The notes under the pieces: generated by a model
Databases searched by the model: none
What the model was told of the DNA's origin: nothing
The model's input: the letters and a program-made list of their open reading frames with translations, nothing else
Program-made: the position numbers and the translations under genes
In this document: positions 16,691 to 43,228 of the stretch, piece by piece
How the letters are laid out: every line of letters begins with the position of its first letter
Position numbering within the stretch: position 1 is the first letter of the stretch
Source: Nitrospira sp. CR1.3
GTDB lineage: Bacteria; Nitrospirota; Nitrospiria; Nitrospirales; Nitrospiraceae
NCBI GenBank assembly: GCA_014055525.1
Contig: WIAH01000001.1
Coordinates: 1 to 64,000 of the forward strand
Direction: 5' to 3'
DNA: 64,000 nt

Positions 16691-16767
16691 GCCCCCGTAG
16701 CTCAGGTGGATAGAGCAGCGGTTTCCTAAACCGCGGGTCGCACGTTCAATTCGTGTCGGGGGCACCA
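16691..16767 (+). tRNA. tRNA-Arg (anticodon CCT)
   Basis: The acceptor GCCCCCG pairs with CGGGGGC, the D arm contains AGCTCAGGTGGATAGAGC, the anticodon stem GCGGT/ACCGC encloses TTCCTAA (anticodon CCT), and CCA is encoded. It stands alone between the ABC module and the zinc-ribbon gene. Confidence 0.96.
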
Positions 16768-17060
16768 TACCAACCTTCGGTTGACCCGCGGGGCTATTGT
16801 TTCGCTTTATCGTTGTTGCGCCCCGCGGATAAACCCATTCAGTGGTTCTTTTACTCAACAATAATCGCTTGTTCCGACAGCTCATCGGGCATAGCCCCTC
16901 TCCAATGACGCCGCCGGATACAAACCTCAACAATTCCAAACATTAATTTCTTGTATGTGCCAGGGCTCCCCCTTCCGAAGTACCTCCTTTAGGTCTAACC
17001 AAGATCCGACAGGTCCGCTAACTTTTGAATCAGAGCGAGGACCCTTGTCGAAAGGAGAGC
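16768..17060. other. Non-coding stretch after tRNA-Arg
   Basis: No credible gene. The stretch is less GC-rich than its surroundings. It has a short AACC-TTC-GGTT hairpin right after the tRNA, which may end transcription or aid processing, and a 9-base inverted repeat, CCGCGGGGC (16786-16794) and GCCCCGCGG (16820-16828), around a 25-base AT-rich loop. The last part holds the AAAGGAG site of the next gene. Confidence 0.5.
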
Positions 17061-17306
17061 ATGATGAACTGTCGCCGTTGTCAGGGCTGCATGGCTCGAG
17101 ATCACTTTGTGGACCTCATGGAAAGCGGAGGAGAATGGTGGACGGCCAGTTGGCGCTGCATTAACTGCGGTTATGTTCTGGATCCGATCCTGGAACAGAA
17201 TCGCCGGAAACAGCAGGTCGAGATGGTCGCCGCTCCGGTACCGGCAACCGCTCTTCAAGAGGATCTCTCTGAGGAAGAATTGACCGAGTTCGACGCCGCG
17301 GCTTAA
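17061..17306 (+). CDS. Small zinc-ribbon protein
   Basis: An 81-residue protein starting MMNCRRCQGCMARDHFVDLM. It has CRRCQGC near the N-terminus and CINCGYVLD near residue 35, two Cys pairs that should bind one zinc. The tail (residues 50-81) is acidic and flexible. An AAAGGAG site lies three bases before the ATG. The second knuckle resembles the end of transcription-factor zinc ribbons, so a nucleic-acid or protein-binding role is possible. I do not know a name for it. Confidence 0.75.
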   Translation: MMNCRRCQGCMARDHFVDLMESGGEWWTASWRCINCGYVLDPILEQNRRKQQVEMVAAPVPATALQEDLSEEELTEFDAAA

Positions 17307-17426: not shown

Positions 17427-18779
17427 ATGGCACGAGCAAGAGCAGAGCGGACCAGGTCAAAAACCGCCATCCTCGAAGACCTCGCTCAAGGGATGGAACG
17501 CCTCCAGAGCTTCATTCCCCAGATTGAGGATTTGGGCCGCGACGGCTTCCCTTATCTGGAAGGGGCGCGAGCAAGAACCGAGCTGCAGCTGAAGGAATGT
17601 ATCAAGAAGACGTTTGGAGAAAAGTCCCCGGAGTTCCAGACCTACCGACAGCATCGACTGTCCGTAGACACACCGGCCGACACCAAGCAGACCGTCGCCC
17701 TTCTCAAGAATCTTATCGCCGCGCTTGAGGATAAGAAACTGGAACTGCAGGGGCTTAAGCCGCCACCGTCTTCTGTTGAAGTGCCGCCGCCACCACCGCC
17801 TCCGACCACTCGACCGCAAATGACCTTGGTACCTTCCTCGATGACGACGGCACAGGTAACGATCACTCCGGCTGCACCGGCAACGCCGCCGCCCATGACG
17901 ATGTCAGTCGCGCTCACAACCAATCTCGACATGGCTCAACCTTCAGCCGGTTCACAGGCCTCATCTTCCGGCCCTGCGAGCGCACCGGTGACCGTGCCAG
18001 AACCCATGAGACCACAACCGAACGTCTCCGGAGAGGCTGCAGTTCCCGTTTCACCCCCGCAACCAGATCGGAAAGATGCCCCGCCAGAAATCAGCCCTCA
18101 GGCAACAGCTCCGGTCGCACCGATCGCCGAGCGGATCGTTCCTCCGGCTGCGGAACCGGCGCAAGCGCCAGCCAGGGCACAGGCTCAGGCGGCCGCCCCG
18201 CTGTCAGAAGTTCAGACGCCTCCGCCGGTAGTTGCGGTGGTCCAGGAAACCAAGATCGCGCAACCGGTTGAACCCATGCCTCACCTCAAGCCTCAATCGA
18301 CTGTCGAAGCGTCATCGGCCAACGATCCCGTCGACATCGTGAAATCACTCTGTAAGCGATTCCACATGGTTGCCCGGCAGTTGCGCCTTCGGGGCGAGTA
18401 CCGAGCCACGTTGGATGTCGAAGACGAACTCGACGCCCAGGACCTCCTGCACGGGCTCTTACGCCTGCACTTCGACGATATCGAGACAACCGAATGGCTG
18501 CCCAGTTATTCGAACGGAACTCCGCGCATCATGTTTCTATTGAATGACAGCCGTCTCGCGGTGATGGTAAAAAAAACCCGAACCGGTCTGACTACCAAGG
18601 ACCTGACCGAGCAACTCCGTATCGACGTCGAGCATTCGCGGACGCTCAAGCGATGTTCAACGCTCCTCTGCTTTGTGTACGACCCGGAAGGCCGCATCGG
18701 AAACCCAAGAGGCCTTGAAACCGATCTCATCAGCATCAGCGATCAGATGACCGTCGACGTCTATGTCGCACCGAAATAG
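17427..18779 (+). CDS. Pro-rich protein with C-terminal restriction-nuclease-like domain lacking acidic residues
   Basis: A protein of about 450 residues. Residues 1-120 are a charged helical domain (ARAERTRSKTAILEDLAQGM). Residues about 120-300 are a Pro/Ala/Gln-rich disordered linker with runs of proline. The last 150 residues resemble the PD-(D/E)XK domain of the DpnII/MboI-like type found at the end of many defence and signalling proteins: DELDAQDLLHGLLRLHFDDI, WLPSYSNGTPR, MVKKTRTGLTTK and LLCFVYDPEGRIGNPRGLE. Where I recall active members reading R-x-DFLL and EVKKT, this protein has RIMFLL (Met 369) and MVKKT (Met 380), so both metal-binding acids are missing. It is probably a binding rather than cutting module. 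The start could be 17385 instead. Confidence 0.7.
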   Translation: MARARAERTRSKTAILEDLAQGMERLQSFIPQIEDLGRDGFPYLEGARARTELQLKECIKKTFGEKSPEFQTYRQHRLSVDTPADTKQTVALLKNLIAALEDKKLELQGLKPPPSSVEVPPPPPPPTTRPQMTLVPSSMTTAQVTITPAAPATPPPMTMSVALTTNLDMAQPSAGSQASSSGPASAPVTVPEPMRPQPNVSGEAAVPVSPPQPDRKDAPPEISPQATAPVAPIAERIVPPAAEPAQAPARAQAQAAAPLSEVQTPPPVVAVVQETKIAQPVEPMPHLKPQSTVEASSANDPVDIVKSLCKRFHMVARQLRLRGEYRATLDVEDELDAQDLLHGLLRLHFDDIETTEWLPSYSNGTPRIMFLLNDSRLAVMVKKTRTGLTTKDLTEQLRIDVEHSRTLKRCSTLLCFVYDPEGRIGNPRGLETDLISISDQMTVDVYVAPK

Positions 18780-18917: not shown

Positions 18918-19172
18918 ATGGCGGACCGGGCCTACGTCTTGATCCACGTGCTGCCGGGACAGACGAGCAGCGTCGTCCGGGCATTGAGAGAGATCAAGCA
19001 GATCAAAACCGTCGATCCTTGTTGGGGCAAGCCGGACATCATTACGATTGTCGAAGTCGCGGACCAGGACGCATTGACTCAGTTGGTTCTGAGCCGGATC
19101 CATGCAATCGAAGGCGTCACCCAAACCGACACTCATCTGGTCTATCGATTGAAGGAAGCCAAGGCGAAGTGA
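18918..19172 (+). CDS. Stand-alone Lrp/AsnC-type ligand-binding domain (RAM domain)
   Basis: An 84-residue protein, MADRAYVLIHVLPGQTSS followed by GKPDIITIVEVADQ, which is the alpha-beta sandwich effector domain of Lrp/AsnC regulators without a DNA-binding part. Such stand-alone domains bind small ligands, often amino acids, and oligomerise. A longer frame from 18792 with 42 additional residues is open and has GAGG upstream, so the start is not certain; the shorter form matches the usual family length. It overlaps the following lipoprotein gene by four bases (GTGA). Confidence 0.75.
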   Translation: MADRAYVLIHVLPGQTSSVVRALREIKQIKTVDPCWGKPDIITIVEVADQDALTQLVLSRIHAIEGVTQTDTHLVYRLKEAKAK

Positions 19173-27402: not shown

Positions 27403-28851
27403 CTAGCGTTCGTGCAGACTTTCTTTTAGCGCTTTCAGAATTGGACTCAAGAGATATTCGATGATCCGTCGCTTGCCGGTCTTGATTTCGACGGCGACGG
27501 CCATACCGGGAGACAAGTTCACCGTTTTCCCGTTGACGAGGATCGTGGACCGTTCCAATCGGACACGCGCGGCGTAGACCAGGTGATCTGCTGACTTGGT
27601 TTGACTTAGTGTCTCATCTTTTGTCTTGTCGCGGTCGAGCGGCACCGCATCGTCCGACACTGTGACGACTTGACCGGGGATCGTGCCGTAGAGCGTAAAC
27701 GGAAACGTTTCGACCTTAATTTCGACGGGCTGGCCTTCTTTGACGAACCCCACATCCTTATTCTCGACCTGCGCCGCCACTTCGACGGGGTGATCTTTCG
27801 GCACCACGACCAAGAGTTGTTGCGCCGGTGTGACGACTCCCCCAACCGTGTGCACGGCCAGTTGCTGCACTACTCCGTCGATCGGCGTCGTGAGCCGCTG
27901 AAGCGTCGTCTTCTGTCCCGCCTTGGTCACCTCTTGAGCGAGGGAGGCAGCCTTTGTTTCAAGAGTCGCCAGCTCGGCCTGCTTGGTCTGCTGAAATTCC
28001 GACACGAGCGCTCGGTAGTTCTTTTCGCTTTCCGCGAGAGCCGCGCGATCTTGTACCAGCTTCATGCGCTGTCCGGCCAATTCCTGAGTTCTGTCAATGC
28101 GCTGCTCTTCGGCCTGGAGATACTCCATTTTCGTCGCAGCCTGATATTCCAGGAGTGACTTAAAGGTTTCAGCCCGTTCAGTTTCCATGGGCACGGTCGC
28201 TTCCAGCCGACGAATGTCTTCTTTGGTTTGCTCGATCGCGGCCTTTCGTCGATCGATCACATGCTGTGCCGCCTGCGCACGCGCCTGATATTCGGCCAGC
28301 TCTTCACGGAGGAGTTGATGCTGCAAGGCAACATACGTTGCATCCGCATCAGTCGGAGGGTCGAAGGTCGATTGGCCTGCGATCAGCGCTTGCAAGCGAG
28401 CAGCTTCGACTCTGGCTGCCCGGTACTCGTTCGACGCCCGGTCTCGATCGGCCCGGTTCAGCGTCGGATCGAGTTCGATCAGCACATCGCCTCGTTTGAC
28501 GACATGACCATCCTGGACATGAATGGCGGCGATGACGCCGCTTTCATAGGGTTGGATGACCTTGGAATAGCCGCTGGAGATGATTTTGCCTTGGGCGATG
28601 GCCACGATATCGATCCAGCCGAACGTGCCCCACAGCACGCCGGACGTAAACAGCGCCAGGATCACCCAGAGAATCGAGCGGCCGATCGGTGAAGGAGGCG
28701 CCTGCTGAATTTCCAGCACGGCGGGAAGAAATTCTGTCGCTCGTTGAGATGAGGGGGTCAGGAAACCTGCACCCATGGTTCCTGACCCATTTTCCAGCTG
28801 CCAAGCTGTCTTCCAAACTATCCAATGCTGCGATAAAGACCCGAATGCCAT
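27403..28851 (-). CDS. HlyD-family membrane fusion (adaptor) protein of type I secretion
   Basis: A 482-residue adaptor that links the inner-membrane ABC exporter to an outer-membrane pore. One membrane segment (about residues 60-80, WVILALFTSGVLWGTFG) is followed by a lipoyl half-motif (GVIAAIHVQDGHVVKRGDVL), a long coiled-coil hairpin (about 130-310), the second lipoyl half (TPIDGVVQQLAVHTVGGVVTP) and a C-terminal beta-barrel ending in GKRRIIEYLLSPI. The ORF begins 15 bases after the exporter stop; an inner ATG at 28776 with AGGAA is an alternative start. It most likely serves the RTX protein at 31792-42300. Confidence 0.94.
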   Translation of the reverse strand: MAFGSLSQHWIVWKTAWQLENGSGTMGAGFLTPSSQRATEFLPAVLEIQQAPPSPIGRSILWVILALFTSGVLWGTFGWIDIVAIAQGKIISSGYSKVIQPYESGVIAAIHVQDGHVVKRGDVLIELDPTLNRADRDRASNEYRAARVEAARLQALIAGQSTFDPPTDADATYVALQHQLLREELAEYQARAQAAQHVIDRRKAAIEQTKEDIRRLEATVPMETERAETFKSLLEYQAATKMEYLQAEEQRIDRTQELAGQRMKLVQDRAALAESEKNYRALVSEFQQTKQAELATLETKAASLAQEVTKAGQKTTLQRLTTPIDGVVQQLAVHTVGGVVTPAQQLLVVVPKDHPVEVAAQVENKDVGFVKEGQPVEIKVETFPFTLYGTIPGQVVTVSDDAVPLDRDKTKDETLSQTKSADHLVYAARVRLERSTILVNGKTVNLSPGMAVAVEIKTGKRRIIEYLLSPILKALKESLHER

Positions 28852-28865
28852 CGACTTCTATCCTG

Positions 28866-31028
28866 TTAGATCTCCACCTCGATCCGCCCGCCTTGAAGCC
28901 GGCACAGTCGTGCATAGGAGCCATTCCTCCCGAGCAAATCGTCATGGGTGCCGTCTTCGATGATCTCGCCTCTTTCCACGACGTAGATGCGATGGGCCGG
29001 CCGGACCGCGCTCAACCGATGGGCGATAATGAATGCTGTTCGGCCGTTGCAGATCTGAGCCATGTTTCGCTGAATGACGGCTTCCGATTCGTAGTCGAGC
29101 GCGCTTGTGGCCTCGTCGAAGATCAGAATCCGCGGATTGGCGACCAGGGCTCGCGCGATTGCGATCCGCTGACGCTGCCCACCGGACAAGGTACACCCCT
29201 GCTCGCCAACCGGCGTATCGTAGCCTTCCGGCAGTTCGAGAATGAATTCATGAGCCCCGGCCAGCTTGGCCGCCTGGATCACCTGTTCCACCTCAATCCC
29301 CGGATCGGTCAGGGCAATGTTGTCGCGGATCGAGCGATTGAACAGGAAGTTGTCCTGGAGCACAATGCCGACCTGCCGGCGTAACGAACTGGGATCGACC
29401 TGTGCCACGTCCACTCCATCGACGAGGATACGGCCGTGCTCGGGAACATAGAGCCGTTGAATCAATTTCGCGATCGTGCTCTTGCCGGATCCTGACCGCC
29501 CAACGATCCCGATGATGTGTCCCGGCATGACCGAAAATGAGACCTTGCGCAATACTTCGGATCCGTCCGGACGGTACCGGAAACTGATCTCCTCAAAGGC
29601 GATCTGTCCGCGCAATGGCTGAAGGGTTGTCCGATTGGCGTTGTACGAGGCCTCCGCTTGCGTATTCAGCACATCGCCCAGCCGTTGAACGGAAATGCCG
29701 ATCTGCTGGAACTCCTGCCAGAGGTTCACGATACGGAGCAGCGGGCCTGTGACCTGAGCCGATAACATGTTGAAGGCGATCAATTGGCCGATGCTCAAAT
29801 CTCCGTCGATGACCCGATAGGCGCCGACCCAGAGCACCGCGACCACGGTGATCTTCTGAATGCACGAGGCAATCTGGCTCGCTCCCGTAATGAGGATGGT
29901 CGCTCGAAAACTGGCTCGCACATAGGCGGCGAGTTGCTCCTCCCATGCGCGCAACAGCGGCGGTTCGACGGCGAGGGCTTTGATCGTCTGAATGCCGCTT
30001 ACCGCTTCCACGAGAAACGACTGATTGTCCGCGCCGCGGTTGAATTTCTCATGGAGCCTGGCGCGGATGGCCGGTGTGATCGTCATCGACAAGAGGGCAT
30101 AGAGCGGCAGCGAGGCCATGACGATCAGGCTCAGCATGGGGCTGTAAAGCCACATGACAACGAGGAACACAAACGTGAAAAAGACGTCTAAGACCACGGT
30201 GACGGAATTGCTCGTGAGGAACTGCCTGATGTGTTCCAGCTCGCGCACTCGCGCGACCGTATCCCCGACACGCCGCGCTTCGAAGTACGCCAGGGGGAGC
30301 CCGAGGATGTGACGGAACAATTGCGCGCCCAGGCCGACATCGATGCGATTGGTCGTATGCGAAAACAGATAGGTGCGCAGACCGCCGAGCGTCGCGTCGA
30401 ACATCGCCAGGGCAATCATGCCGATCGCCAAGACATGCAGCGTCGTGAAGCCTTTGTGGATCAGCACCTTGTCGATGACCACTTGGGTAAAGAGCGGCGT
30501 GAGGAGGGCAAACAGTTGCAGGAAGAACGAGGCCAGGAACACCTCGCCCAGCAATTTGCGATACTTCACGATGGCCGGGATGAACCAGGTGAAATCGAAC
30601 CTCAAATCCTGAAGCCGGAGATTGGCGCGCTTCGTAAACAACAGCAGCTCGCCGGTCCAACCCGATTCGAACTCCTCGCGAAGCTGAATCAGGGGGCGCT
30701 CGAGTACCGGGTCTTGAATCAGCGCCTTGTCGCCTTCGATCTTAGCCAGGACCACATACCGTCCGTCGCCTCGCTTCGCCATCGCAGGCAGCGGGGTTCC
30801 TGGCAGACGGCTCCATTGCGTGCGATGGACACCTGCCTTGAGTCCGAGATGCTTCGCGGCACGCAGGATGTCAATATCGGAAAACGAGAATCCGGACCGG
30901 GCAAACTGATGGCGCAACTGCGCCGCATCAGCCGGCACGTCATGAAAGCGAGCCAGGATGAGGAGGCAGAGGAGACCGGTATCAGTCTGGTGGGGAGAGG
31001 AGCCTGGCTGCTCGTCACGGTGAGGCAC
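28866..31028 (-). CDS. HlyB-type ABC exporter of type I secretion, with C39-like domain
   Basis: A protein of about 720 residues. Residues 1-130 are a C39-like domain whose active site is lost: the catalytic Cys position reads DTGLLC instead of DCGLAC, and the His position reads GRYVVL instead of GHYVVL, while the Asp of IQDP is kept. This is the non-cleaving, substrate-tethering type found in RTX exporters. A six-helix membrane domain follows (about 145-440), then the ATPase with GRSGSGKST, TLSGGQRQR and ILIFDEATSALD. The start is a GTG at 31028 with AGGGAA upstream; a TTG at 31052 is also possible. Confidence 0.94.
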   Translation of the reverse strand: MPHRDEQPGSSPHQTDTGLLCLLILARFHDVPADAAQLRHQFARSGFSFSDIDILRAAKHLGLKAGVHRTQWSRLPGTPLPAMAKRGDGRYVVLAKIEGDKALIQDPVLERPLIQLREEFESGWTGELLLFTKRANLRLQDLRFDFTWFIPAIVKYRKLLGEVFLASFFLQLFALLTPLFTQVVIDKVLIHKGFTTLHVLAIGMIALAMFDATLGGLRTYLFSHTTNRIDVGLGAQLFRHILGLPLAYFEARRVGDTVARVRELEHIRQFLTSNSVTVVLDVFFTFVFLVVMWLYSPMLSLIVMASLPLYALLSMTITPAIRARLHEKFNRGADNQSFLVEAVSGIQTIKALAVEPPLLRAWEEQLAAYVRASFRATILITGASQIASCIQKITVVAVLWVGAYRVIDGDLSIGQLIAFNMLSAQVTGPLLRIVNLWQEFQQIGISVQRLGDVLNTQAEASYNANRTTLQPLRGQIAFEEISFRYRPDGSEVLRKVSFSVMPGHIIGIVGRSGSGKSTIAKLIQRLYVPEHGRILVDGVDVAQVDPSSLRRQVGIVLQDNFLFNRSIRDNIALTDPGIEVEQVIQAAKLAGAHEFILELPEGYDTPVGEQGCTLSGGQRQRIAIARALVANPRILIFDEATSALDYESEAVIQRNMAQICNGRTAFIIAHRLSAVRPAHRIYVVERGEIIEDGTHDDLLGRNGSYARLCRLQGGRIEVEI

Positions 31029-31071
31029 GATGATTTCCCTGGATTGTCGCAACGATATCCGGTCTCATACG

Positions 31072-31100
31072 TTGACGGAAACATGCCTGTTCAGTATGGT
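31072..31100 (+). promoter_or_regulatory. Promoter of the Uma2-type gene
   Basis: -35 TTGACG (31072-31077), a 17-base spacer and -10 TATGGT (31095-31100). The start near 31107 gives a short leader to the ATG at 31123. Confidence 0.6.
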
Positions 31101-31122
31101 GAATCAATGCATGGGGGCCCGG

Positions 31123-31671
31123 ATGAATCTGGCAACCACGAAGCTGACCTATCATGATTACCTGCTTCTGCCGGATGACGGGAAGCGGTACGAGATTCTC
31201 GACGGAGAACTGTTCGCGACCCCGTCACCGGTCCCTCGACATCAACTCGTCGTCGGACGATTCCTCCATCACCTCATAACCTACCTCGAAGCCCACCCAA
31301 TAGGGACCGTGTTCACCGCTCCCTGCGATGTGGTGCTCAGCGATACGGATATCGTTGAACCCGATCTTATTCTGATATTGACAACCAGCCGTGCCAGCAT
31401 TACGGAGAAAAACGTTCCGGGTCCGCCAGACATTGTCCTTGAAGTGCTGTCCCCCGGCACAGCCGCTCGGGATCGCGACTTGAAACGCAAGCGATATGAG
31501 CGGTTCGGGGTGCAGGAGTATTGGTTGGTTGATCCCGACCAGAACACTCTCGAGATTCTCGCGTTAAAGGACGGAACGTATATTCATGTCTGCAGAGCGA
31601 CGCGGCCGACTGACTGCGTCTCCCCGCTCCTACCTGGATTGATCCTAAACCTTGCACGGCTTCTCGAATAG
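31123..31671 (+). CDS. Uma2-family (DUF820) PD-(D/E)XK nuclease-like protein
   Basis: A 182-residue protein of the Uma2 family, with KLTYHDYLLLPDDGKRYEILDGEL at its start. The nuclease-like core shows DIVEPDLILIL, then PPDIVLEVLSPGTAARDR and KRKRYERFGVQEYWLVDPD. The family has a restriction-nuclease fold and is common in cyanobacteria and mobile regions; its function is not established. In-frame ATGs lie upstream (31096, 31111), but the promoter position favours 31123. It is inserted on the opposite strand between the exporter and RTX genes. Confidence 0.88.
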   Translation: MNLATTKLTYHDYLLLPDDGKRYEILDGELFATPSPVPRHQLVVGRFLHHLITYLEAHPIGTVFTAPCDVVLSDTDIVEPDLILILTTSRASITEKNVPGPPDIVLEVLSPGTAARDRDLKRKRYERFGVQEYWLVDPDQNTLEILALKDGTYIHVCRATRPTDCVSPLLPGLILNLARLLE

Positions 31672-31699
31672 CCCTTTCGAGCCTCCGCATCACCGCCTT

Positions 31700-31791
31700 G
31701 GGGACTGACACCCTTCCCCGCGTCTGCGCGTGGTGTCCCCTTTCTTCTCTTCGGAACAGGGACAGGCACCGGCTGCGCCGGAGCCAGTCCC
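31700..31791. repeat. Pair of REP-like palindromes between Uma2 and RTX genes
   Basis: Two adjoining hairpins. The first pairs GGGG-ACACC (31700-31712) with GGTGTCCCC (31732-31740). The second (31759-31791) pairs GGGAC, GGC and CCGG with CCGG, GCC and GTCCC around loop CTGCG, with only A-A mismatches. The opening GGGACAGGCACC resembles REP-type elements in many bacterial genomes. No T-run follows, so a plain terminator is less likely, although the pair lies between convergent genes. Confidence 0.6.
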
Positions 31792-34700
31792 TCAATGCCA
31801 GTTGGCCGCCAGCACTGTTTGCACCTGTTGCGGCTGCTGATCGATGGCTTGGTCCCACGTGAGGCCTGTCTGTTGCGAGAAACCGGCCATCGCCTGGATG
31901 AGTTGATCCACTTGGGTATTCACGAGATGCTGCCCATGGCCGGCCTGGATATCTTCGATCTGATTCGTGGTGGGGCTCGTGTACCAATTCTGGATCGAGA
32001 TTGAATCGCTCGACCCATGCACCGCGAGACGCAGATCGTTGGCTTGCCGTGAAAGCACGAGGTCTAAGGGAGTGATCGCTGCGTCAAACAGCAGGTGGTC
32101 CTGGTTGCTTTGGAAGGGATCAGAGTCGACGATCGTATCATGGCCGTCGCCGCGGGCGAACGTGTACCTATCGTTGCCGGACCCACCGGTCAGCGTATCG
32201 TTGCCGGTGCCGCCGGTGAACTGATCGGCGCCGCTGCCACCGGCCAGGCTGTCGTTTCCTGCACCACCCCGGAGGATATCGTTGCCAGAACCGCCATCGA
32301 GCGTATCGGTGCCGTCGCCTCCGTCGAGCACATCGTCGCCGCTCCCGGCGTTGAGATTGTCGTTTCCCAACCCACCGAAGAGCGTATCGTCTCCGCTGCC
32401 TCCGAGGAGCGTGTCGTTGCCCCCACCGCCGTCGAGACTGTCGTTGCCCGAACCGCCATCAAGCTGGTTATTGCCGCTATTGCCGATCAGGTTGTTGTTG
32501 GCCGAACTGCCGGTGCCGTTGATGTTCGCCGCACCGGTCAGCGTGAGATACTCGACGTTGGAACCCAGATTGTAGGTCACAGCACTCTCGACCGTATCGA
32601 TCCCCTGATTCGCCGACTCCGTGACCACATCGCCAGTTTGATTCACGACGAAGGTGTCGTCGCCGGCACCGCCCACCATCGTGTCATTACCGAGGCCGCC
32701 GTCGAGCCGATCGTTGCCTGCGCCGCCGGTCAACGTATTGTTCCCACTGTTGCCGACTAGGACGTTGTCCAGCGCATTACCAGTCACGCTGATATTGGCG
32801 GTCCCTGTGAGCGTGAGATTCTCGACGTTCGCGCCGAGCGTGTAGGTGATGGAACTCTGCACCGTGTCTGTTCCCTCGTTGGCATTCTCGGTCACCACAT
32901 CGCCGGCGCTCTCGACGACGTAAGTGTCGTTGCCCGTTCCCCCAGTCAGCCGGTCAGCGCCGGGCCCGCCGTCCAAGAGATCGTTGCCGGCCCCGCCCAT
33001 GAGCGTATCGTTGCCGGCGAGCCCCGAGAGTTGATCGTTCCCGATGCCGCCCGTCAGCACATCGTTGCCGGCGGTGCCAGTCAAGATCTGGTCGGCACTG
33101 CTGACCGTGACCGTAAAATCATCGGCGGCGCTCAGACTCCCCGTATCCGTCGCCGTCACGGTGAGATTCAGCCTTCCGACATCGGCGCTGCCCGGCGTAC
33201 CGCTGAAGGTGCGGTTAATGGAATTAAAGTTAAGCCAAGTGGGGAGCGGATTGCCGTTGGTCAATCGCGCGCTGTAAGTCAGCACCTCGCCCGCATCAGG
33301 ATCGCTAAACGTATTCGCCGGGACAACGAAGCTGTACGCGGCACCTTGCGTCGCCTGTTGATCCGAGATCAGATTCGCCACAGTCGGAGCGTCATTTACA
33401 TTTTCTACCGTCAGGCTGAAGCTGTCCGAGACGCTCAAATTCTCTGCATCCGTCGCCGTCACCTTTACCTCCAAAGAGCCCACGTCACCGTTGGTCGGTG
33501 TCCCGATGAACATCCCGGTGCTTGCATCGAAGCTCAGCCAGGTGGGAAGCGCGCCGCGATTTGCCAGACTCGCGCTGAGAGTCAAGTGATCGCCCGCATC
33601 GGGATCAGCAAACGTATCCTCCGGCACCACCACATTGAACGGGGTGTCTTCCTGGACCACCTCATCTGCCAACGGGTTGGCGACGGTCGGAGCATGGTTG
33701 ACATTTGATGGAAACAGCTCGGCGAGGCTCGTTGTGCTGCCGTCGCCAAAGACCAATGTGTTCACCACCAGCGAGCCATTGGTGGCGGTGGGATCGAAAT
33801 TTGTAAGTACCGCCTTGTCTAATCCGCTACGGCCGACCTGAATGGTGAGGGTTCGCGCAGTTTGGTCCTGGGTGAACGTCAGATCGCCCAACTGAATACC
33901 GGCGCCGAACAGGATTCGATTACCTTCACCCGCCGAGGCGGTATCTTCGATCCGATCCACGCCGTCGCCGAGGTTGAAGGCATAAGTATCACCTCCGCCA
34001 CCACCCAGGAGAGCATCATCGCCCCGACCGCCAGCTAGAACATTCTCAGCGCTATTGCCCGTCAGTCGGTTGTCCAGGCCGTTGCCTCTCCCATCAATCG
34101 CCTCATCTCCGGCCAACATCAGGTGCTCAAGATGATCGCCTAGCTGATAAGAGGCACGACTTATCACTCTGTCGGTTCCCTCCCCCGCTGACTCCATGAT
34201 GATGTCGCCGACTCCGACAACATACACATCATCTCCGACACCGCCGATCAACATATCGATTGCAGTGTCGTTGATCGAGTCGTCAAGCACGGTAGCCGGA
34301 TCGATAAATTCGAATCCATTGGGCGAAAGGATCCGTCCATAACCTCCTATCAACGTGTCATTGCCCGCATGGCCTTCAAGGATGTTGGCCCCGATACTGC
34401 CGATTAGCACATTGTCCAAATTGTTTCCAACACCATGAGTGCCGCCGAACAGGAGCAAATTGTCTACATTATTCGGAAGTATCTGATCGGTGATGGCAAC
34501 CACCGTATCGCTGCCTTCATCAGGCAATTCAACGACTGTCGCATTGGGCAGATCGAAGAACGGGCCCTGAGTCGGATCGACCGCTGACAGGACTTCGTAT
34601 CCACCGATGAGGATGTATGTGTCGTCTCCCGGGCCACCAAGCAAGAGGTCCACGCCGTGAGCCCCCACACTGCTAAAGGGCGGCCCTCCCAGCATCCACA

Positions 34701-37700
34701 AGAACGGTCGGAGTACATCATTCCCTTGTCCACCGACCAACACATCACTCCCGTCGCCAAATTCGGTGAAGGACGGAATCGAGGCACCGCCGATGAGCAC
34801 GTCATTCCCTGCGCCACCATCGAGGATATTGTCCCCGTCGCCGCCACCGTGATCAGGCGCACCCATGATGACGTTGTCGAGCTCGTTCCCGATGCCAAGA
34901 ACGGCTTGACTCCCAATGTCAAACAGCAAGTTCTCCACGTTCCCAGAAAGAGAGTAATCCAGGAACGTCGTTACGGTATCGTTGCCTTCATTCGGAAATT
35001 CGACAACGATGTCTCCGGCTCCTACACCGTAGAGATCGTCTCCTTTCCCTCCAACCAGGGTGTCTGCGCCACTCGTGCCTCCCATGGTATCGTTTCCGTC
35101 CGTACCCGCACCCTGCTGTTCATGGCTGGTGAGGTAAGCCTGATCCCATACCGTCCCATCGGCAAATACGATCTGGCCTGGGAACGACAGTCCCATCTGC
35201 AATTCATCGAGCGTTCCCACGATGCCCAGCCTGTGATTCCCCGATTCAAATGCATACAGCCTGACATCAGCAGGAAGGACGTCGGGACCCAGTTGCACCG
35301 TATCTTCGACGGAAGGGTTGGCGCTGTCACACCCATAACCCCGTCCGAACACGAACGTGTCGATTCCAAGACCGAACAGATTATCGTTCCCTGCGCCTCC
35401 GTCCAAGAAATTGACGAGCCCCTGTCCGCCAAGAAAATCGTTCCCCGCACCGCCACGGAGAATGTTCTGCCCTCCGAGAGCGGACACGTTGTCATCACCG
35501 TCTCCTCCGTCGAGTTCGTTATCTCCCCCTCCCCCGGATAGCGAGTCACGTCCGTCACCACCCAACAGCACATCGCTGCCCTCACCTCCGTCTAGAAGAT
35601 CATTCCCGGCGCCCCCTTCGAGCCGATCGTTCCCGCCAAACCCATTCAAACGATCATTGGCGGCAGTTCCGATCAGCACATCATCACTAATCCCACCGTC
35701 CAATATCACACCGGGACCTGGGTCATGCACACCAGCCGATTTTTCCGACAGCATCGCCGCATCCCAGATCGTGCCGTCAGCGAATCGAACCTGTTTTGTC
35801 GAGAGATCAGATAGCGAGGAATAGAGGAGAATGAGGTGGTCGCTAGGACTCTCTTGGTTACTGGAGAAGGAAGGCAGTGACAAAAATAGCCCCGAAAGTC
35901 CGAAGCGATTTCCATATGCAAGAGATTCAGAGTCATCAAGTTGCCGTCTGGTGACGGTCGTTTGGTCAGGTGTGATTCCAGCATTCACCTGAATGGTGTC
36001 TATTTCTCCTGCAACCACATCATCCACCGCATCGATGCCGGAGCCGAATCCAAACAAATAGGCATCTTGGCCCGCGCCGCCACGCAGCACATCGAACCCT
36101 TCATTCCCTGCCAATGTATCGCTCCCCAATCCTCCCTCGAGCACATTTCTCTGACTGTTTCCCAACAGCACATTGTCGAGGGCGTTACCGATACCCACCT
36201 GAAGACCTGCGCCTGTCCCTCCGTAGATCGAAGTCGCGATCGCTTCGCCTGCATCTCGTCCGATCTGAAGGAACGGATCGATGTTCCTGGCTGTTTCTAG
36301 CAATGTCAGATTTTCTACGTTGACTCCCAACTGGTACGATCTGGTCGTCTGGATCGTGTCGATGCCTTCGCCCGCTCGCTCCATCACGATGTCGCCTGCG
36401 CTCACGACATAGGTGTCGTTGCCTCTTCCACCGGTCAGCACGTTGACCGCACTGTTGCCGGTCAACACATTGTCGAGGTCATTGCCGGTGCCATCGATCG
36501 GCGCCGAGCCGGTGAGTGTCAAATTCTCGAGGTTCGCGCCTAATGTAGAGGTCCGGTCCGTCACGACCGTATCGCGCCCTTCACCGGCTTGCTCAACGAC
36601 CGTGTCGCCCAGGCCTATAAAATAAGTGTCATCGCCAACCCCGCCGGTGAGCACATTCACACCGCTATTGCCTGTCAGCACATTGTCGAGTTCGTTGCCG
36701 ACGCCGGTGACCGTGGCGGTGCCGGTGAGCGTCAGATTCTCCACGTTGTCTGACAGCTGAATGCTGACGGCCGACTGCACCGTATCCAAGCCTTCATTGG
36801 CTAGCTCCGTGACGACATCCCCGCTATCATCCACCAGATAGGTGTCGTCGCCGGTCCCGCCAACCATCACATCGGCGCCGATACCGCCATCCAAGAAGTC
36901 GTTCCCGGCCAGCCCTGAGAGTTGATCATCTCCCGCCAATCCTTGAAACAGATCGTCACCAACTGTGCCGGTGAGATTGTCACTATCCGCTGTTCCGATG
37001 ATCGGTCGCCGCGCCAACTCGGCAATCGTCGCCGTATCCCAGACTGTGCCGTCGGCAAACCGCACTGCGTCGAGCTGCAACACCGCCGCCGTGAAAAACT
37101 GGGAGAGAGTCACGGCATCATGGCTGTCGCCGATGGTCAGCACCACGTCTTCGCCGTTCCTCGTGACCTGGAGATCAGTGGGCGTCACATCGGCCGCATA
37201 CTGAATCGCATCGTTTGTCCCACCCACATCGATCAGCCGATCCTGGCCGCTGCCACGACCAAGTAGATAGGTATCGTCGCCGCGGCTGCCGTTCAGCAGA
37301 TCGTCCCCTGTGCCGCCGTCCAGCACATCGTCGCCGGCGCCGCCTTGCAAGGTGTCGTTGCCGGCCAGGCCCTTCAATCGATCCGTGACGTTCGTCCCCG
37401 CCACCACATCGTTCCCCACCGTGCCGGTGAGATCAAACCCGCGGGCAATCAGTTGATCGTACGTCAAGACCGTGCCATCGGAGAACCGGTAAGAGTCCAC
37501 CGCATGGGGTCCCAGCACGTTGCCGCGATCGAACGACTCCAGCAGCAGCGTATCGCCGGACGTGCCGACACGGATCAGCATTTGGTTTGTCCCGAATCCG
37601 AATGCCGGCGCCTGCCAGCCCAGCGTCAGATCGGCAGGCGCCATTCCGGCGCCAAACACCACGCTGTTGCCTTGCCCCGTCTTGGCCAGATCCTCGATCG

Positions 37701-40700
37701 TGTCAATCCCATCCCCCGTCACAAACGTATACTGATCGTCCCCGGCTCCACCGTTCATCCGATCGTTGCCCCGACCGCCGATGAACAGGTCCCGTGCATT
37801 CGTCCCAAACAACGTATCGTCGAACTCTGTCCCCGGGACGTTGATCCCGCGATCTACCAACTGCGCATGCGTCAGCGTCGTGCCGTCGGAAAACTGAAAC
37901 TCATCGACGGCGCGTGAGTTGTAGATATCGGAGAAATTGGGGAAGTCCAACGACAGCCCATCTCCCTGCGTGCCGATCGGCAGTTCCAAGCCGTTGCCGA
38001 GACGATACTGCATGCCCGTGGCTGTAATGCCCGGTCCGAAGACCACCTGATTCGCATCGCTGGAGCCCGCGAACTCCACGATCTGATCGACGCCGCTCCC
38101 GAGCGAGAACCGATAGGTGTCGTTGCCGGAACCGCCCTCCAGACGATCGTTGTCGGCGCCCCCGTCGAACGTATCTGGTCCCTCGCCGCCATCCAGCCAG
38201 TCGTTTCCCTCTCCGCCTAGCAATAGATCTGCCCCGACCCCGGCAAACAGTTGATCGTTTCCTGTCCCTCCCTCTAAGACATTGTCGCCAGATCCCCCAA
38301 ATAGTCCGTCGTGACCTGCTAAGCCGACAATCCTCTGATAGCTCTCGCCGCCATTTAACACATCGTTGCCGCTCGTTCCCACGAGATCGAATCCTCGTGC
38401 CACCAACTCGGCATGAGTCAGGGTCGTGCCGTCGGTAAACTCGAAAACATCGATGCCTGCCGACTGGGTTGGATCAGCCGGATTAAACCCTTGAATGTAG
38501 ATAGTGCCGCCATTGGAGCCCACGCGCAGCATCAAGGAGCCGAGGCCGAGCGTGATGTCCTGCGAAGTAATGCCGGGCCCAAAGACTAGCTTGTTCCCTT
38601 CCCCCGACGTATCACTAATCGTATCGACGCCATCGCCAAGATTGAACATGTACGTATCGGCGCCCAATCTACCCGAGAGCTGGTCATTTCCGGTTCCACC
38701 GTCAAGCTCATCGCTGCCGCTGCCACCGAACAGTTGGTCGTTCCCTCCGCCGCCGACGAGAAGATCGTTGCCTTCTCCTCCATCCACAATGTCCTCGCCT
38801 TCATCCCCAATGAGTTCGTCATCGCCACTCTCGCCGGACAGCGTATCGTCACCAACGCCCCCCACCAGCAGATCCTGTCCGGCTCCCCCAACAACCTGAT
38901 CGGCCCCATCTTCGCCATCGAGAAAGTCGTCGCCGTCACCGCCAGACAGTAGATCGTCACCCGTTCCTCCTGCTAAGTCGTCGGCTCCGCCCTGGCCGAA
39001 GAGGCGATCGTGCTCTGTGCCGCCATTCAAGAGATCGTCGCCGTCCCCGCCTTGCAATTCGTCCGCCCCTTGTTCCCCATCTAAGATGTCATCCCCGGCT
39101 TCGCCAAACAGGCGGTCATTGTCACTGCCGCCGAGCACGAGATCCTCGCCTCCGCCGCCTTGCAGTTCGTCGGCCCCCGCGCCGCCATCGAGCAGGTCAT
39201 CGAAGCCGAGCCCCACGTTATTGGCGTAGTCGCCTACGAGCACGTCGTCCCCATCGCCGCCGTACAACGCATCTTCACCGCCGCCACCGATCAGAGTATC
39301 GTTTCCCCCTTCGCCCTCCAGCCAATCGTCGCCCTCCTGAATGATCCCGACCTGCAGATCGTCGCCGACCAGCTCATCATTGTCCTCGCCCCCCAAGAGG
39401 ACGTCGTCGCCCGCATCGCCTTGTAGATAATCGGCACCTTCGCCGCCGTCGAGGTAGTCGGCGCCGCCGGTCAGGCTGTTGAACGCTTGGCCTGGGAGGG
39501 TCGTCACAATGCCGGGATAAGTCAGTTCGAAATTCGGCGCATTTGAGGAAACTTGATCACCATAGAGATGGTCTGCACCGGTCCCGCCGTAGAGCACATC
39601 GTCCCCTCGCAACCCGAGCACCCAGTCATCCCCCGCTTCGCCATCCAGATAGTCATCGCCTGTTGTGGTTGATCCAAGCGCAATCGATTCCCCAGAAAGG
39701 ACATCGTTGCCGTCTCCGCCCCATACCACATCGTCCCCCGACCCGCCGTCGAGACCATCATTGCCAGGCCCGCCATACAGAACATCCTGGCCCAAACCAC
39801 CCTTGATCAGATCGATCTCACCACCCCCGTCGAGGACATCGTCGCCTTCAACCGCGAGGATCAGATCGCGTCCGGCTTCACCATAGATTCGGTCGTGCCC
39901 AGCCCCGCCGTGCAGCTCGTCATGACCGTCACCGCCATAGATTTGATGGTTGAACGCGGAGCTGCTGCTTTCCAGATCGAGAACGTCGTTGCCGCCGAAT
40001 CCCCGGGCAACATGATTGGCCGAGGCCGTAAAGGTTGGAGTATTGTCTGTGGCATCGCCGTCATAGGTCACGGTCGGTTGGCCATTGTTGTACTCAATGA
40101 CGGGCCCGGCGTTGTCTACGAGGTTGCCCGCATCGGCGAGTTTGATCCCGAGGGCGCCGGTGCTGAAGTTGAAGTTTTCAACAGCGAGAGTGCCGTTGAT
40201 GACGAGATCGGCACCGGACTTCACATAGGTAAATCGACCGTCAGCGCTCCCATAGGTACTTGCCGGATCGCCTTGCCGGCGAATTCCACCGACAAGCGTC
40301 TGATTGTCGAATTGAATGGTGCCGACCTTGTCGGAATCGACGATACGATCCTGTCCTTGGCCGGAGTGATAGACATGGGTATCGAGGCCGGTGCCGCCAT
40401 CCAACAGATCGTTGCCGAGCCCGCCGTTCAAACGATCGTTGTCGGCACCACCATAAAGTTGGTCGTCCCCTTGCTGACCGAGGAGAATGTCATTCTCGCT
40501 CCCGCCATGGAGCTCGTCATTATCGACACCACCTTCAAGATAATCTTGACCCGCCAAACCGTTGAGCACATCATCGCCGGCGCCACCATAGAGATGGTCG
40601 TTGCCGAGCCGGCCATCGAGCGGATCGTTCTCGGTCCCGCCAAAGGTGACGACTTCCGTGGCTGTGGCATTGCGGCCATTGTTGAAAAGGGTCGATTTGT

Positions 40701-42300
40701 CTTCATACAACGTGACGCTCGCATCGCCAGGTGTCCCATCGGCTCGTGTGAACTTCAGTGTTTCTGCCAACAGCTCAGCCCGATCACTCAATGCATTCAA
40801 TGTCCAAGTACCCTGGCCGATTTGGGCGTTGTAAAGGTCCACCGCCCCATTGACGTTGTGTTGCGTATAGTCCGCCCCAATGACTGCGAAGGGATTCAAG
40901 TCTTGCAAAGCAAAGCGATAGGCCATCCCGGTTGCGTCGGCGTTACGAGCCGCCGCATAGATCTCGTTGCTGCTCATGGTGGCCAGACTGATGATTTGGT
41001 AGGTCTGCGTCCCGACCGCACTTCTGACGGCTTCGAGATTGGCATAGAATTGACTGCGAAACGTAAGATCTCCAAAGTCATTCGTTTGGCGTCCAAAGGG
41101 CGTCGGGGTGTGGTTCGAGACGAAGATCCTGCCCAATCCATCCAATGCGTTCTCCAATGAGTTGCCCTCGGCGATGCCGGTCGTACCTATCGTCGTGCCT
41201 GAAGCACGCTGGTCCGAACTCGCGCCAAATATCTTCTCGATATCTCCTTTCGTGAGATTGGGATCGATCGACTGAAAAAGTTCGGATAGTGCCAAGGAAT
41301 CAATAAGCAGCGTGAAGCTATGCGTCGTCCCAAAGCTACCATTAAGCCCAAAAAACCCACCGAAGCCGTCCAAAATGGGTTGTCCTTCAATAAATACGCT
41401 CGTTTCAGCGCGATGCACACCGGAGTTAGCCACATAATCCGTATCTTCGTGATTGGCATGACCGACCAATTGAGTGATCTTGGAAAACGGACCGTCAGTT
41501 CTCGGAATATCTGACAAAGCTTGCGAAGTGGGGTGATATTGATCGAACACGGCTTGAAGTGCAGTCTGGTAGCGGAAATCGGTGTACAGACTTCCAGATG
41601 TACCGCTGTCGAACGGGTGACTATCTAAACCTTGGCTTGATAACTGATCGGCGAAGAAATCGACCATTTCCTTAATGCGCGCCCCCTCAGAGAGTCCCGG
41701 TGTGCCTCCGGACAGTTGTCCGCGTCCGGCACCATTAAACGTGTAGGTATGGTTGACGTCGGTCTCGTGCATCTCAGTGAAAACGGTGGCGAGGTGACCG
41801 CCCAGGGAGTACCCCGTCACGTTTAGCGTCGCACCATTCGGGAGCAGACCATCAGTCTTGAGCTGCTGATAGTATTTCTCCATGCTTACGAGCTGGCCAA
41901 AGGCGAACCCTTTGAAGAAGATCTCCCCGTCTGCGCCAGGTTGACCGTCGCGCTCGAAGTCTCCACCTTCAGATAGATTCCGGTATTCGGTACTGCGAAA
42001 GGAAAGGGTGTATGAATCAGTGGTTGTGTCCTTTAGTAGCGTCGCTGAAAATCCCGTCGCATCGTTGGCGTGATGGTCGACGACTTGGTAGCGGGAAGTA
42101 AAGTCCCTAGCTTGGCCGCTTTCGCGTGTTCCGGTAAAGCGCGTGAAGCCAGTAAGTGGGAAACCATCTCGGTTGTTGCCTAGAAGCAGCCTATCTGTTA
42201 TCTGGTCTGCATTCGATAAAGAAATACCCTCGAGATACGACTCCGCTGCCATCTGCTGGAGCGCAAACCCCAACCAAGTGCTGAATTCACCTTGTGGCAT
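31792..42300 (-). CDS. Giant RTX protein with N-terminal lipase-like domain
   Basis: A secreted protein of about 3,502 residues. Residues about 40-300 resemble a class 3 lipase/phospholipase A1 fold, with LSFRSTEYRNLS and nucleophile box GYSLGG (Ser165). From about residue 550 onward come blocks of calcium-binding nonapeptides (GGAGDDVLNG type), mixed with haemolysin-related segments (GDGVDTIEDLA...ADLTLG) and NLTLTG/GTGNDLDNVLTGN modules. Two cadherin-like/putative Ig domains (about 2867-3067, each with DAPTVAN and PTWLSFD-type motifs) precede the last RTX blocks. The C-terminal 100 residues carry the probable type I export signal. The start at 42300 has GGAGGG four bases upstream and overlaps the end of the preceding secreted gene; 42312 and 42324 are alternatives. 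Confidence 0.93.
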   Translation of the reverse strand: MPQGEFSTWLGFALQQMAAESYLEGISLSNADQITDRLLLGNNRDGFPLTGFTRFTGTRESGQARDFTSRYQVVDHHANDATGFSATLLKDTTTDSYTLSFRSTEYRNLSEGGDFERDGQPGADGEIFFKGFAFGQLVSMEKYYQQLKTDGLLPNGATLNVTGYSLGGHLATVFTEMHETDVNHTYTFNGAGRGQLSGGTPGLSEGARIKEMVDFFADQLSSQGLDSHPFDSGTSGSLYTDFRYQTALQAVFDQYHPTSQALSDIPRTDGPFSKITQLVGHANHEDTDYVANSGVHRAETSVFIEGQPILDGFGGFFGLNGSFGTTHSFTLLIDSLALSELFQSIDPNLTKGDIEKIFGASSDQRASGTTIGTTGIAEGNSLENALDGLGRIFVSNHTPTPFGRQTNDFGDLTFRSQFYANLEAVRSAVGTQTYQIISLATMSSNEIYAAARNADATGMAYRFALQDLNPFAVIGADYTQHNVNGAVDLYNAQIGQGTWTLNALSDRAELLAETLKFTRADGTPGDASVTLYEDKSTLFNNGRNATATEVVTFGGTENDPLDGRLGNDHLYGGAGDDVLNGLAGQDYLEGGVDNDELHGGSENDILLGQQGDDQLYGGADNDRLNGGLGNDLLDGGTGLDTHVYHSGQGQDRIVDSDKVGTIQFDNQTLVGGIRRQGDPASTYGSADGRFTYVKSGADLVINGTLAVENFNFSTGALGIKLADAGNLVDNAGPVIEYNNGQPTVTYDGDATDNTPTFTASANHVARGFGGNDVLDLESSSSAFNHQIYGGDGHDELHGGAGHDRIYGEAGRDLILAVEGDDVLDGGGEIDLIKGGLGQDVLYGGPGNDGLDGGSGDDVVWGGDGNDVLSGESIALGSTTTGDDYLDGEAGDDWVLGLRGDDVLYGGTGADHLYGDQVSSNAPNFELTYPGIVTTLPGQAFNSLTGGADYLDGGEGADYLQGDAGDDVLLGGEDNDELVGDDLQVGIIQEGDDWLEGEGGNDTLIGGGGEDALYGGDGDDVLVGDYANNVGLGFDDLLDGGAGADELQGGGGEDLVLGGSDNDRLFGEAGDDILDGEQGADELQGGDGDDLLNGGTEHDRLFGQGGADDLAGGTGDDLLSGGDGDDFLDGEDGADQVVGGAGQDLLVGGVGDDTLSGESGDDELIGDEGEDIVDGGEGNDLLVGGGGNDQLFGGSGSDELDGGTGNDQLSGRLGADTYMFNLGDGVDTISDTSGEGNKLVFGPGITSQDITLGLGSLMLRVGSNGGTIYIQGFNPADPTQSAGIDVFEFTDGTTLTHAELVARGFDLVGTSGNDVLNGGESYQRIVGLAGHDGLFGGSGDNVLEGGTGNDQLFAGVGADLLLGGEGNDWLDGGEGPDTFDGGADNDRLEGGSGNDTYRFSLGSGVDQIVEFAGSSDANQVVFGPGITATGMQYRLGNGLELPIGTQGDGLSLDFPNFSDIYNSRAVDEFQFSDGTTLTHAQLVDRGINVPGTEFDDTLFGTNARDLFIGGRGNDRMNGGAGDDQYTFVTGDGIDTIEDLAKTGQGNSVVFGAGMAPADLTLGWQAPAFGFGTNQMLIRVGTSGDTLLLESFDRGNVLGPHAVDSYRFSDGTVLTYDQLIARGFDLTGTVGNDVVAGTNVTDRLKGLAGNDTLQGGAGDDVLDGGTGDDLLNGSRGDDTYLLGRGSGQDRLIDVGGTNDAIQYAADVTPTDLQVTRNGEDVVLTIGDSHDAVTLSQFFTAAVLQLDAVRFADGTVWDTATIAELARRPIIGTADSDNLTGTVGDDLFQGLAGDDQLSGLAGNDFLDGGIGADVMVGGTGDDTYLVDDSGDVVTELANEGLDTVQSAVSIQLSDNVENLTLTGTATVTGVGNELDNVLTGNSGVNVLTGGVGDDTYFIGLGDTVVEQAGEGRDTVVTDRTSTLGANLENLTLTGSAPIDGTGNDLDNVLTGNSAVNVLTGGRGNDTYVVSAGDIVMERAGEGIDTIQTTRSYQLGVNVENLTLLETARNIDPFLQIGRDAGEAIATSIYGGTGAGLQVGIGNALDNVLLGNSQRNVLEGGLGSDTLAGNEGFDVLRGGAGQDAYLFGFGSGIDAVDDVVAGEIDTIQVNAGITPDQTTVTRRQLDDSESLAYGNRFGLSGLFLSLPSFSSNQESPSDHLILLYSSLSDLSTKQVRFADGTIWDAAMLSEKSAGVHDPGPGVILDGGISDDVLIGTAANDRLNGFGGNDRLEGGAGNDLLDGGEGSDVLLGGDGRDSLSGGGGDNELDGGDGDDNVSALGGQNILRGGAGNDFLGGQGLVNFLDGGAGNDNLFGLGIDTFVFGRGYGCDSANPSVEDTVQLGPDVLPADVRLYAFESGNHRLGIVGTLDELQMGLSFPGQIVFADGTVWDQAYLTSHEQQGAGTDGNDTMGGTSGADTLVGGKGDDLYGVGAGDIVVEFPNEGNDTVTTFLDYSLSGNVENLLFDIGSQAVLGIGNELDNVIMGAPDHGGGDGDNILDGGAGNDVLIGGASIPSFTEFGDGSDVLVGGQGNDVLRPFLWMLGGPPFSSVGAHGVDLLLGGPGDDTYILIGGYEVLSAVDPTQGPFFDLPNATVVELPDEGSDTVVAITDQILPNNVDNLLLFGGTHGVGNNLDNVLIGSIGANILEGHAGNDTLIGGYGRILSPNGFEFIDPATVLDDSINDTAIDMLIGGVGDDVYVVGVGDIIMESAGEGTDRVISRASYQLGDHLEHLMLAGDEAIDGRGNGLDNRLTGNSAENVLAGGRGDDALLGGGGGDTYAFNLGDGVDRIEDTASAGEGNRILFGAGIQLGDLTFTQDQTARTLTIQVGRSGLDKAVLTNFDPTATNGSLVVNTLVFGDGSTTSLAELFPSNVNHAPTVANPLADEVVQEDTPFNVVVPEDTFADPDAGDHLTLSASLANRGALPTWLSFDASTGMFIGTPTNGDVGSLEVKVTATDAENLSVSDSFSLTVENVNDAPTVANLISDQQATQGAAYSFVVPANTFSDPDAGEVLTYSARLTNGNPLPTWLNFNSINRTFSGTPGSADVGRLNLTVTATDTGSLSAADDFTVTVSSADQILTGTAGNDVLTGGIGNDQLSGLAGNDTLMGGAGNDLLDGGPGADRLTGGTGNDTYVVESAGDVVTENANEGTDTVQSSITYTLGANVENLTLTGTANISVTGNALDNVLVGNSGNNTLTGGAGNDRLDGGLGNDTMVGGAGDDTFVVNQTGDVVTESANQGIDTVESAVTYNLGSNVEYLTLTGAANINGTGSSANNNLIGNSGNNQLDGGSGNDSLDGGGGNDTLLGGSGDDTLFGGLGNDNLNAGSGDDVLDGGDGTDTLDGGSGNDILRGGAGNDSLAGGSGADQFTGGTGNDTLTGGSGNDRYTFARGDGHDTIVDSDPFQSNQDHLLFDAAITPLDLVLSRQANDLRLAVHGSSDSISIQNWYTSPTTNQIEDIQAGHGQHLVNTQVDQLIQAMAGFSQQTGLTWDQAIDQQPQQVQTVLAANWH

Positions 42301-43228
42301 TCTGCCCTCCATAACTAGCCTCACCGTGACTGGGAATTAGAGCTTTGGTAATAAACCAGTACGCAAAGTCTCCATCCTTATTCCTGCCAGGTCTGACACT
42401 GTAGGTTGGGCACACATTTCCTCCAAGCCACCAGACGCCAGTAAGATTGTTTCGAACGTGACCACTCCGAATAAACCCGCGACGTACAGCAAGTACCTCC
42501 ATTGTCCTCAAATCCACCAGAATTAGTTCTCCTCCAACTATTCCTAGATCGCGGTCATGAGGACGTTTTATGCCTCTCCAAGTAAAGCCAAAACGACTTC
42601 GAAGCTCTCTTACATTTTCTTGGTCCATCTTTTTCTTTTTCATCTGGTTGTATCCAGAATAGCGGCGGTACATGGTCCCAACAGATGGAGACACGCCAGC
42701 AGGTGGGAATGGAATTTCGAAAAATTGATAGGCCCCCAACGGGGGGTTTACAAATATCGTCTGAGGTGTTTCTGCCTCCCAATCCGTGTACCCGTAAGGA
42801 TCTTCCAACGCATACAAATGCGCCTGCATATCATCTGTAGCCTTTTCCCGCGGCCGCATCATGTAGAGTCCTTCGACATTCTCCACTGTCTTGTAGATGA
42901 ACTCCCCTGCTTCGGTCTTACAAAGGTGATCGAAGTACTGCTCCGGCGTCATGCCGGGCTTGTAGCCGCTGTCGGCCGGGAGAGGATTGGGAATCTTGAT
43001 TGAATGAGCAAAGCGGCCTTCCTCGGTGGCCAGTGGATCGGCGGGCTTGAGCTTCGCGACCTCACCACATACTTCGTTGGGCGCCAGCTTCCGGCTGGCA
43101 CACTGCTTCGTTATGTCCTTCAGCGCTTTGTCAAACCGTTCCGCCACCGTCTCGCCCTTGGCCGCATTGACTTGGCCAATTACCGCGAGTAGGCACACCG
43201 GCATCAACCATCTTGCAATCTCATGCAT
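42287..43228 (-). CDS. Secreted protein coupled to the RTX gene, unknown function
   Basis: A 313-residue protein with a signal peptide (WLMPVCLLAVIGQVNA, cleavage after residue about 22). The mature part has several Cys (CASRK, EVCGE, HLCKTEAG, GNVCPTYS), is rich in aromatic residues, and I do not recognise its family. GGAGG lies ahead of the ATG. Its stop lies 14 bases inside the RTX reading frame's start region, so translation of the giant protein is probably coupled to it. Composition is less GC-rich than the neighbours, a sign of possible transfer. Being Sec-exported, it may meet the RTX protein at the cell surface. Confidence 0.85.
   Translation of the reverse strand: MHEIARWLMPVCLLAVIGQVNAAKGETVAERFDKALKDITKQCASRKLAPNEVCGEVAKLKPADPLATEEGRFAHSIKIPNPLPADSGYKPGMTPEQYFDHLCKTEAGEFIYKTVENVEGLYMMRPREKATDDMQAHLYALEDPYGYTDWEAETPQTIFVNPPLGAYQFFEIPFPPAGVSPSVGTMYRRYSGYNQMKKKKMDQENVRELRSRFGFTWRGIKRPHDRDLGIVGGELILVDLRTMEVLAVRRGFIRSGHVRNNLTGVWWLGGNVCPTYSVRPGRNKDGDFAYWFITKALIPSHGEASYGGQNATR

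Follow-up and report, generated by a model that had tools for sequence, protein, structure and literature searches.

The locus and its protein

The window, the whole stretch of 64,000 nucleotides analysed here, covers positions 1 to 64,000 of the forward strand of contig WIAH01000001.1 of Nitrospira sp. CR1.3 (GCA_014055525.1). It carries a gene for a protein of 450 aa, referred to below as the pseudo-nuclease, which is present in one copy in the genome. The features of the locus are the following.

16691..16767, + strand: tRNA-Arg(CCT), 0.66 kb upstream of the pseudo-nuclease, seen in 12 of the 13 loci scanned
17427..18779, + strand: pseudo-nuclease gene, 450 aa, an open reading frame with the conserved start MARA
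17427..17768, + strand: N-terminal helical domain, residues 1-114, with four helices in the AF2 model (pLDDT 76.6)
17757..18323, + strand: Pro/Ala-rich linker of about 189 aa, residues 111-299, presumed disordered from its composition and dN/dS
17886..17924 (approximate), + strand: short conserved linker motif PPMTMSVALTTNL, from motif scoring against shuffled linkers
18324..18776, + strand: DpnII/MboI-type PD-(D/E)XK domain, residues 300-450, from the PF18742 match and the AF2 model
18531..18533, + strand: Met369, where the catalytic Asp is expected (D298 of EcbAgaN), from the alignment
18564..18566, + strand: Met380, where the catalytic Glu is expected (E309 of EcbAgaN), from the alignment
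18570..18572, + strand: Lys382, the retained Lys of the ExK motif (K311 of EcbAgaN), from the alignment
18918..19172, + strand: stand-alone Lrp/AsnC ligand-binding (RAM) protein, the downstream neighbour, from a domain match and synteny

The ATG at 17427 is backed by the common start of the orthologues, MARA. Downstream, the RAM gene, whose true start is probably 18918, is followed by a lipoprotein-like ORF and, on the opposite strand, by a sigma-54 activator (NtrC-type), a histidine kinase and malQ. Across 95 loci, each of these downstream neighbours occurs 84-90 times and their order is conserved, as it also is in genomes of the family devoid of the pseudo-nuclease gene. ABC transport genes are also found among the neighbours. 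The RAM protein displays a highly conserved core (DRAYVLI...IDPCWGKPDI...QTDTH.VYRL) and is encoded in 170 of 175 family genomes, some of them without the pseudo-nuclease, which rules it out as an obligate partner. The region upstream of the pseudo-nuclease, at 17058-17306, encodes a small zinc-ribbon-like protein with paired CxxC motifs, restricted to the genus of the window and some of its relatives.

The first-pass annotation of the sequence had described a helical domain joined to a C-terminal domain through a long Pro-rich linker, and this architecture is recovered: Pro accounts for 45 of the 189 linker residues, and the AF2 model of the N-terminal part is helical. A Pfam search of the N-terminal domain finds no credible family, and Foldseek returns generic helical bundles only. 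Within the otherwise fast-evolving linker the hydrophobic motif PPMTMSVALTTNL recurs across several genera, and 65 of the 158 tested exceed the 99% level obtained with shuffled linkers. The motif may serve for docking.

A nuclease fold without its metal-binding acids

Residues 304-450 match the family REase_DpnII-MboI (PF18742) over profile positions 2-150 of 150 with E = 9e-50, the score of 168.6 bits comparing with a curated cut-off of 27. An AF2 model of residues 300-450, built from 99 sequences, is confident (pLDDT 92.2, pTM 0.88) and displays the order of elements seen in PD-(D/E)XK proteins: two helices, three strands, helix, strand, helix, strand. Residue 369 falls on the second strand, residues 380 and 382 on the adjacent third. 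The DpnII/MboI-like framework initially recognized by eye in the C-terminal domain is thus borne out by both the profile match and the model. Foldseek with this domain yields nothing below 1e-3; PD-(D/E)XK proteins occur only among the matches of better probability, which include SfsA, Shedu, EcoO109I, R.BspD6I, BstEII and a chain of the ASFV RNA polymerase, and support for the fold from this side is weak. The top-ranked Foldseek rows, metallo-beta-lactamases, have a TM near 0.17 and were taken as spurious.

The domain alignment comprises 240 loci, including 55 acid-intact members, most of which come from other phyla. The columns of residues 369 and 380 hold Asp and Glu in 100% of these 55 members, and both hold Met in the pseudo-nuclease, as the first reading of the sequence had claimed. 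By the pattern of active PD-(D/E)XK enzymes, the second-strand Asp (Met369) and the Glu of ExK (Met380) are absent and the Lys of ExK (K382) is present. The first reading had also allowed for intact acids at other positions; no compensating acid was found on either catalytic strand (residues 366-372 and 377-383) in the 131 orthologues lacking both acids.

Among solved structures, the domain profile has a single credible relative, EcbAgaN (PDB 23wq, E = 3.6e-9), the DNase effector of a long-B pAgo system. Its residues D298, E309 and K311, counted along the profile alignment, correspond to Met369, Met380 and Lys382. The EcbAgaN mutants D298A and E309A-K311A have their DNase activity abolished (PMC10620215). 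By analogy, this equivalence is the strongest available evidence against the site working in the usual way; as EcbAgaN cannot do without the matching residues, we infer that the pseudo-nuclease cannot cut DNA. The two proteins share a homologous C-terminal domain and a two-domain layout with an unstructured connection; EcbAgaN, unlike the pseudo-nuclease, is an active Mn2+-dependent DNase with intact acids and an Argonaute partner.

Distribution of the gene and of acid loss

A protein search gave a match in 148 of the family's 175 genomes, and in 101 of the 114 that are of good quality; the matched genomes are Nitrospira and relatives. A domain search of 396 genomes places PF18742 in essentially this family only within the phylum. 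Since some family genomes are without the gene, the pseudo-nuclease is dispensable in places. A search of the gene-lacking genomes for a divergent version came back empty; their upstream ORF is, by inspection, unrelated.

An orthologue could be read in 141 genomes of the family: both acids are absent in 131 of them, Asp alone is kept in 8 and Glu alone in 2; no orthologue keeps both. Position 369 is occupied by Thr (80), Ser (24), Ala (14), Met (10) or Asp (8), and position 380 mostly by Val (96), Ile (27) or Leu (9), Met at 380 occurring solely in Nitrospira sp. CR1.3. Whether orthologues share the two Met residues, a question raised with the first description of the site, is answered in the negative: the pair Met369/Met380 is found in Nitrospira sp. 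CR1.3 alone. Lys at position 382 is kept in 133 of the 141. The event is a loss of the acids across the clade, to which the choice of Met is incidental. Genomes G015 and G016 encode second, Asp-only pseudo-nuclease paralogues (L259:890-2059 and L260:2882-4033).

Phylogeny and selection

Nitrospiraceae sequences form a single clade (support 100/99), and the fully disarmed sequences a clade nested within it (99/98). On a second tree, with the two trait columns left out and the N-domain added, Asp undergoes at least three changes, which are forced by well-supported branches. For Glu, a history with regain takes three changes and one without regain takes more losses, because each of the two Glu-keeping sequences pairs with a Glu-lacking sister (98/95 and 93/93). 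The half-disarmed sequences of G004, G005, G009, G012 and G014 share the locus and are therefore orthologues; in G013, G164 and G165 the syntenic genes are absent on their short contigs. The pseudo-nuclease gene is inherited vertically, at a fixed locus.

The three parts of the protein experience unequal constraints. Pairwise dN/dS is mostly 0.03-0.15 in the PD-(D/E)XK domain, about 0.1-0.3 in many pairs in the N-terminal part, and mostly 0.4-0.6 in the linker in unsaturated pairs; values of 0.000 reflect synonymous saturation and carry no evidence. The PD-(D/E)XK domain is under strong purifying selection. Compared with acid-intact relatives of similar diversity, constraint was lost at positions 335, 342, 351-363, 369-370, 380 and 394 and gained at 309, 387, 423, 425 and 450, with R423 and G425 turned invariant; the losses cluster in the catalytic region. 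A shift of this kind is expected when constraint on the catalytic face is relaxed and passes to a different surface. With a net charge of -3 the domain is no evident DNA binder; its acid-intact relatives are just as acidic, and charge was set aside as uninformative on this point.

Relatives on mobile elements

The acid-intact members of PF18742 are short proteins of about 250-290 aa, for most of which the shared domain is roughly 43-56% identical to that of the pseudo-nuclease. Many have a helical N-domain followed by the nuclease domain, in the same order as the pseudo-nuclease. They differ from it in having D...ExK intact, in having no long Pro-rich linker, and in occurring in different phyla and on plasmids and integrative elements. 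Homology of the N-domains is moderately supported by profile-profile comparison, with a probability of 83% and a pairwise P = 9e-6, against 0.3% in a reversed control. Relatives of the nuclease domain are found in 206 plasmid records, mostly predicted conjugative, and in none of 50,697 phage records. Two of these relatives that were examined adjoin AbiEii/AbiEi and an Abi-family gene, respectively. The relative at L264:4659-5456 (NZ_MW655528.1), on an IncX4 plasmid, is labelled 'malate dehydrogenase', very likely a misannotation.

Two loci, L261 and L262, encode fusions of the N-domain with Hypoth_Ymh (PF09509; E about 1e-34 and 6.5e-32), a family of predicted HEPN RNases linked to abortive infection (PMC3710099). 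At L262:3954-6817, tRNA-Arg(CCT) is followed by the N-domain-Ymh (HEPN) fusion and by ORFs that resemble recombinases in sequence. This looks like a genomic island, and its tRNA is the one that also lies ahead of the pseudo-nuclease locus. Because of this arrangement, arrival of the ancestor of the pseudo-nuclease in a tRNA-associated island is plausible but unproven.

Functional interpretation

Taken together, these observations make it probable that the pseudo-nuclease is a defence-type DNase domesticated by Nitrospiraceae and now acting as a non-cutting binding protein. An ancestor of Nitrospiraceae would have acquired a two-domain defence-type DNase (N-terminal helical plus DpnII/MboI PD-(D/E)XK), whose gene became fixed beside the cluster of RAM, NtrC-type regulator, histidine kinase and malQ and gained the Pro-rich linker of ~200 aa. 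The metal-binding acids would then have been lost in descendant lineages, Asp on at least three separate ones. The C-terminal domain may bind nucleic acid or a partner through the surfaces still constrained, candidates being the RFHxVARQLRLR helix, K382-x-T384 and the YDPEGRIG loop with R423 and G425. The helical domain could dimerise or dock a partner, the flexible linker tethering both domains.

Reuse of the fold for binding, possibly in a defence or regulatory setting, had been suggested in the first-pass annotation. Its retention for a non-cutting use is upheld by the clade-wide acid loss and the purifying selection; that the protein is a non-catalytic binding protein is a step taken by analogy, with less certainty than the loss of cutting. 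RecC and RPB5 are inactive versions of the PD-(D/E)XK fold kept for other functions (PMC1185551), and the pseudo-nuclease likewise combines a retained fold with lost catalytic residues and purifying selection. The nuclease-like domain of RecC resembles it as an inactivated PD-(D/E)XK domain with a new, non-cutting function, but belongs to an unrelated lineage, is part of RecBCD and does not derive from a DpnII/MboI-type mobile nuclease. The N-terminal domain of RPB5, which differs in being part of an RNA polymerase subunit, is likened by analogy and not by sequence.

As for defence, the suggestion survives as a statement about ancestry. A present-day defence function is unsupported because the gene is near-core and vertically inherited and keeps a fixed place among housekeeping and regulatory genes, in a genome without Argonaute. 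The defence reading could take the form of a sensor, in which the dead domain binds phage DNA or protein and the helical domain signals. Such a sensor would agree with the HEPN-Ymh fusions of the N-domain and with the match to the pAgo-associated Helical-REase effectors (PADLOC profile Aga_Helical-REase, E = 2.7e-21), which covers the C-terminal domain only (residues 302-448). We consider it unlikely, given the near-core vertical distribution, a locus with no effector or Argonaute partner, and a genome of Nitrospira sp. CR1.3 with no Piwi match.

The preserved fold and most non-catalytic surfaces would also suit an immunity or dominant-negative protein directed against an active DpnII/MboI nuclease, or a decoy for phage inhibitors, and related mobile nucleases do exist in the wider bacterial pool. 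Acid-intact PF18742 relatives are found, however, in only three family genomes (G017, G041 and G084), as against 141 with a readable orthologue, and none in Nitrospira sp. CR1.3; an arms-race antidote is moreover ill-suited to vertical near-core inheritance and fixed synteny, so we hold this reading to be improbable. We see an equally slim chance that the protein is an enzyme still, using another metal site or catalysing another reaction on the same fold. K382, E/D334, D333, D400 and the YDPEG segment remain conserved, acids at 324 and 444 are fixed in the Nitrospiraceae clade only, and tRNA-splicing EndA, whose unrelated site sits on the opposite face of the fold, provides a precedent (PMC1185551). 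Against this, the catalytic strands are free of acids in all 131 orthologues lacking both, and conservation is relaxed in segment 351-363 of the catalytic face. Decay into a pseudogene in Nitrospira sp. CR1.3, the genome with the most unusual site (M/M) and a unique Ser404 where 130 of the 141 have Tyr, can be dismissed as very improbable in view of the open frame of 450 codons, the clade-wide conservation and the low dN/dS against its nearest relatives (about 0.05 against G046 and G050).

Domestication of a defence-type DNase remains the preferred reading. A broader proposition, for which we regard the case as evenly balanced, is that a nuclease once used in mobile defence became, throughout the family, a near-core protein that does not cut, with the site disarmed convergently in several lineages, other parts more constrained, and a new housekeeping or regulatory function. 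A literature search found no paper on the Nitrospira pseudo-nuclease gene. The locus would provide a clean case of domestication, with acid-intact relatives, half-disarmed intermediates and a fully disarmed clade on one tree, and it singles out a near-core gene in Nitrospira, a major nitrifying lineage. PF18742 and PADLOC matches in these genomes should not be tallied as restriction or pAgo defence.

A large repeat protein elsewhere in the window

The reverse strand at 27403-42324 encodes an RTX-repeat protein of 3510 aa with 38 HemolysinCabind stretches and He_PIG domains. The gene adjoins a peptidase-C39 ABC exporter and an HlyD-type gene, and from these sequence features its product is a probable large type I-secreted surface protein.
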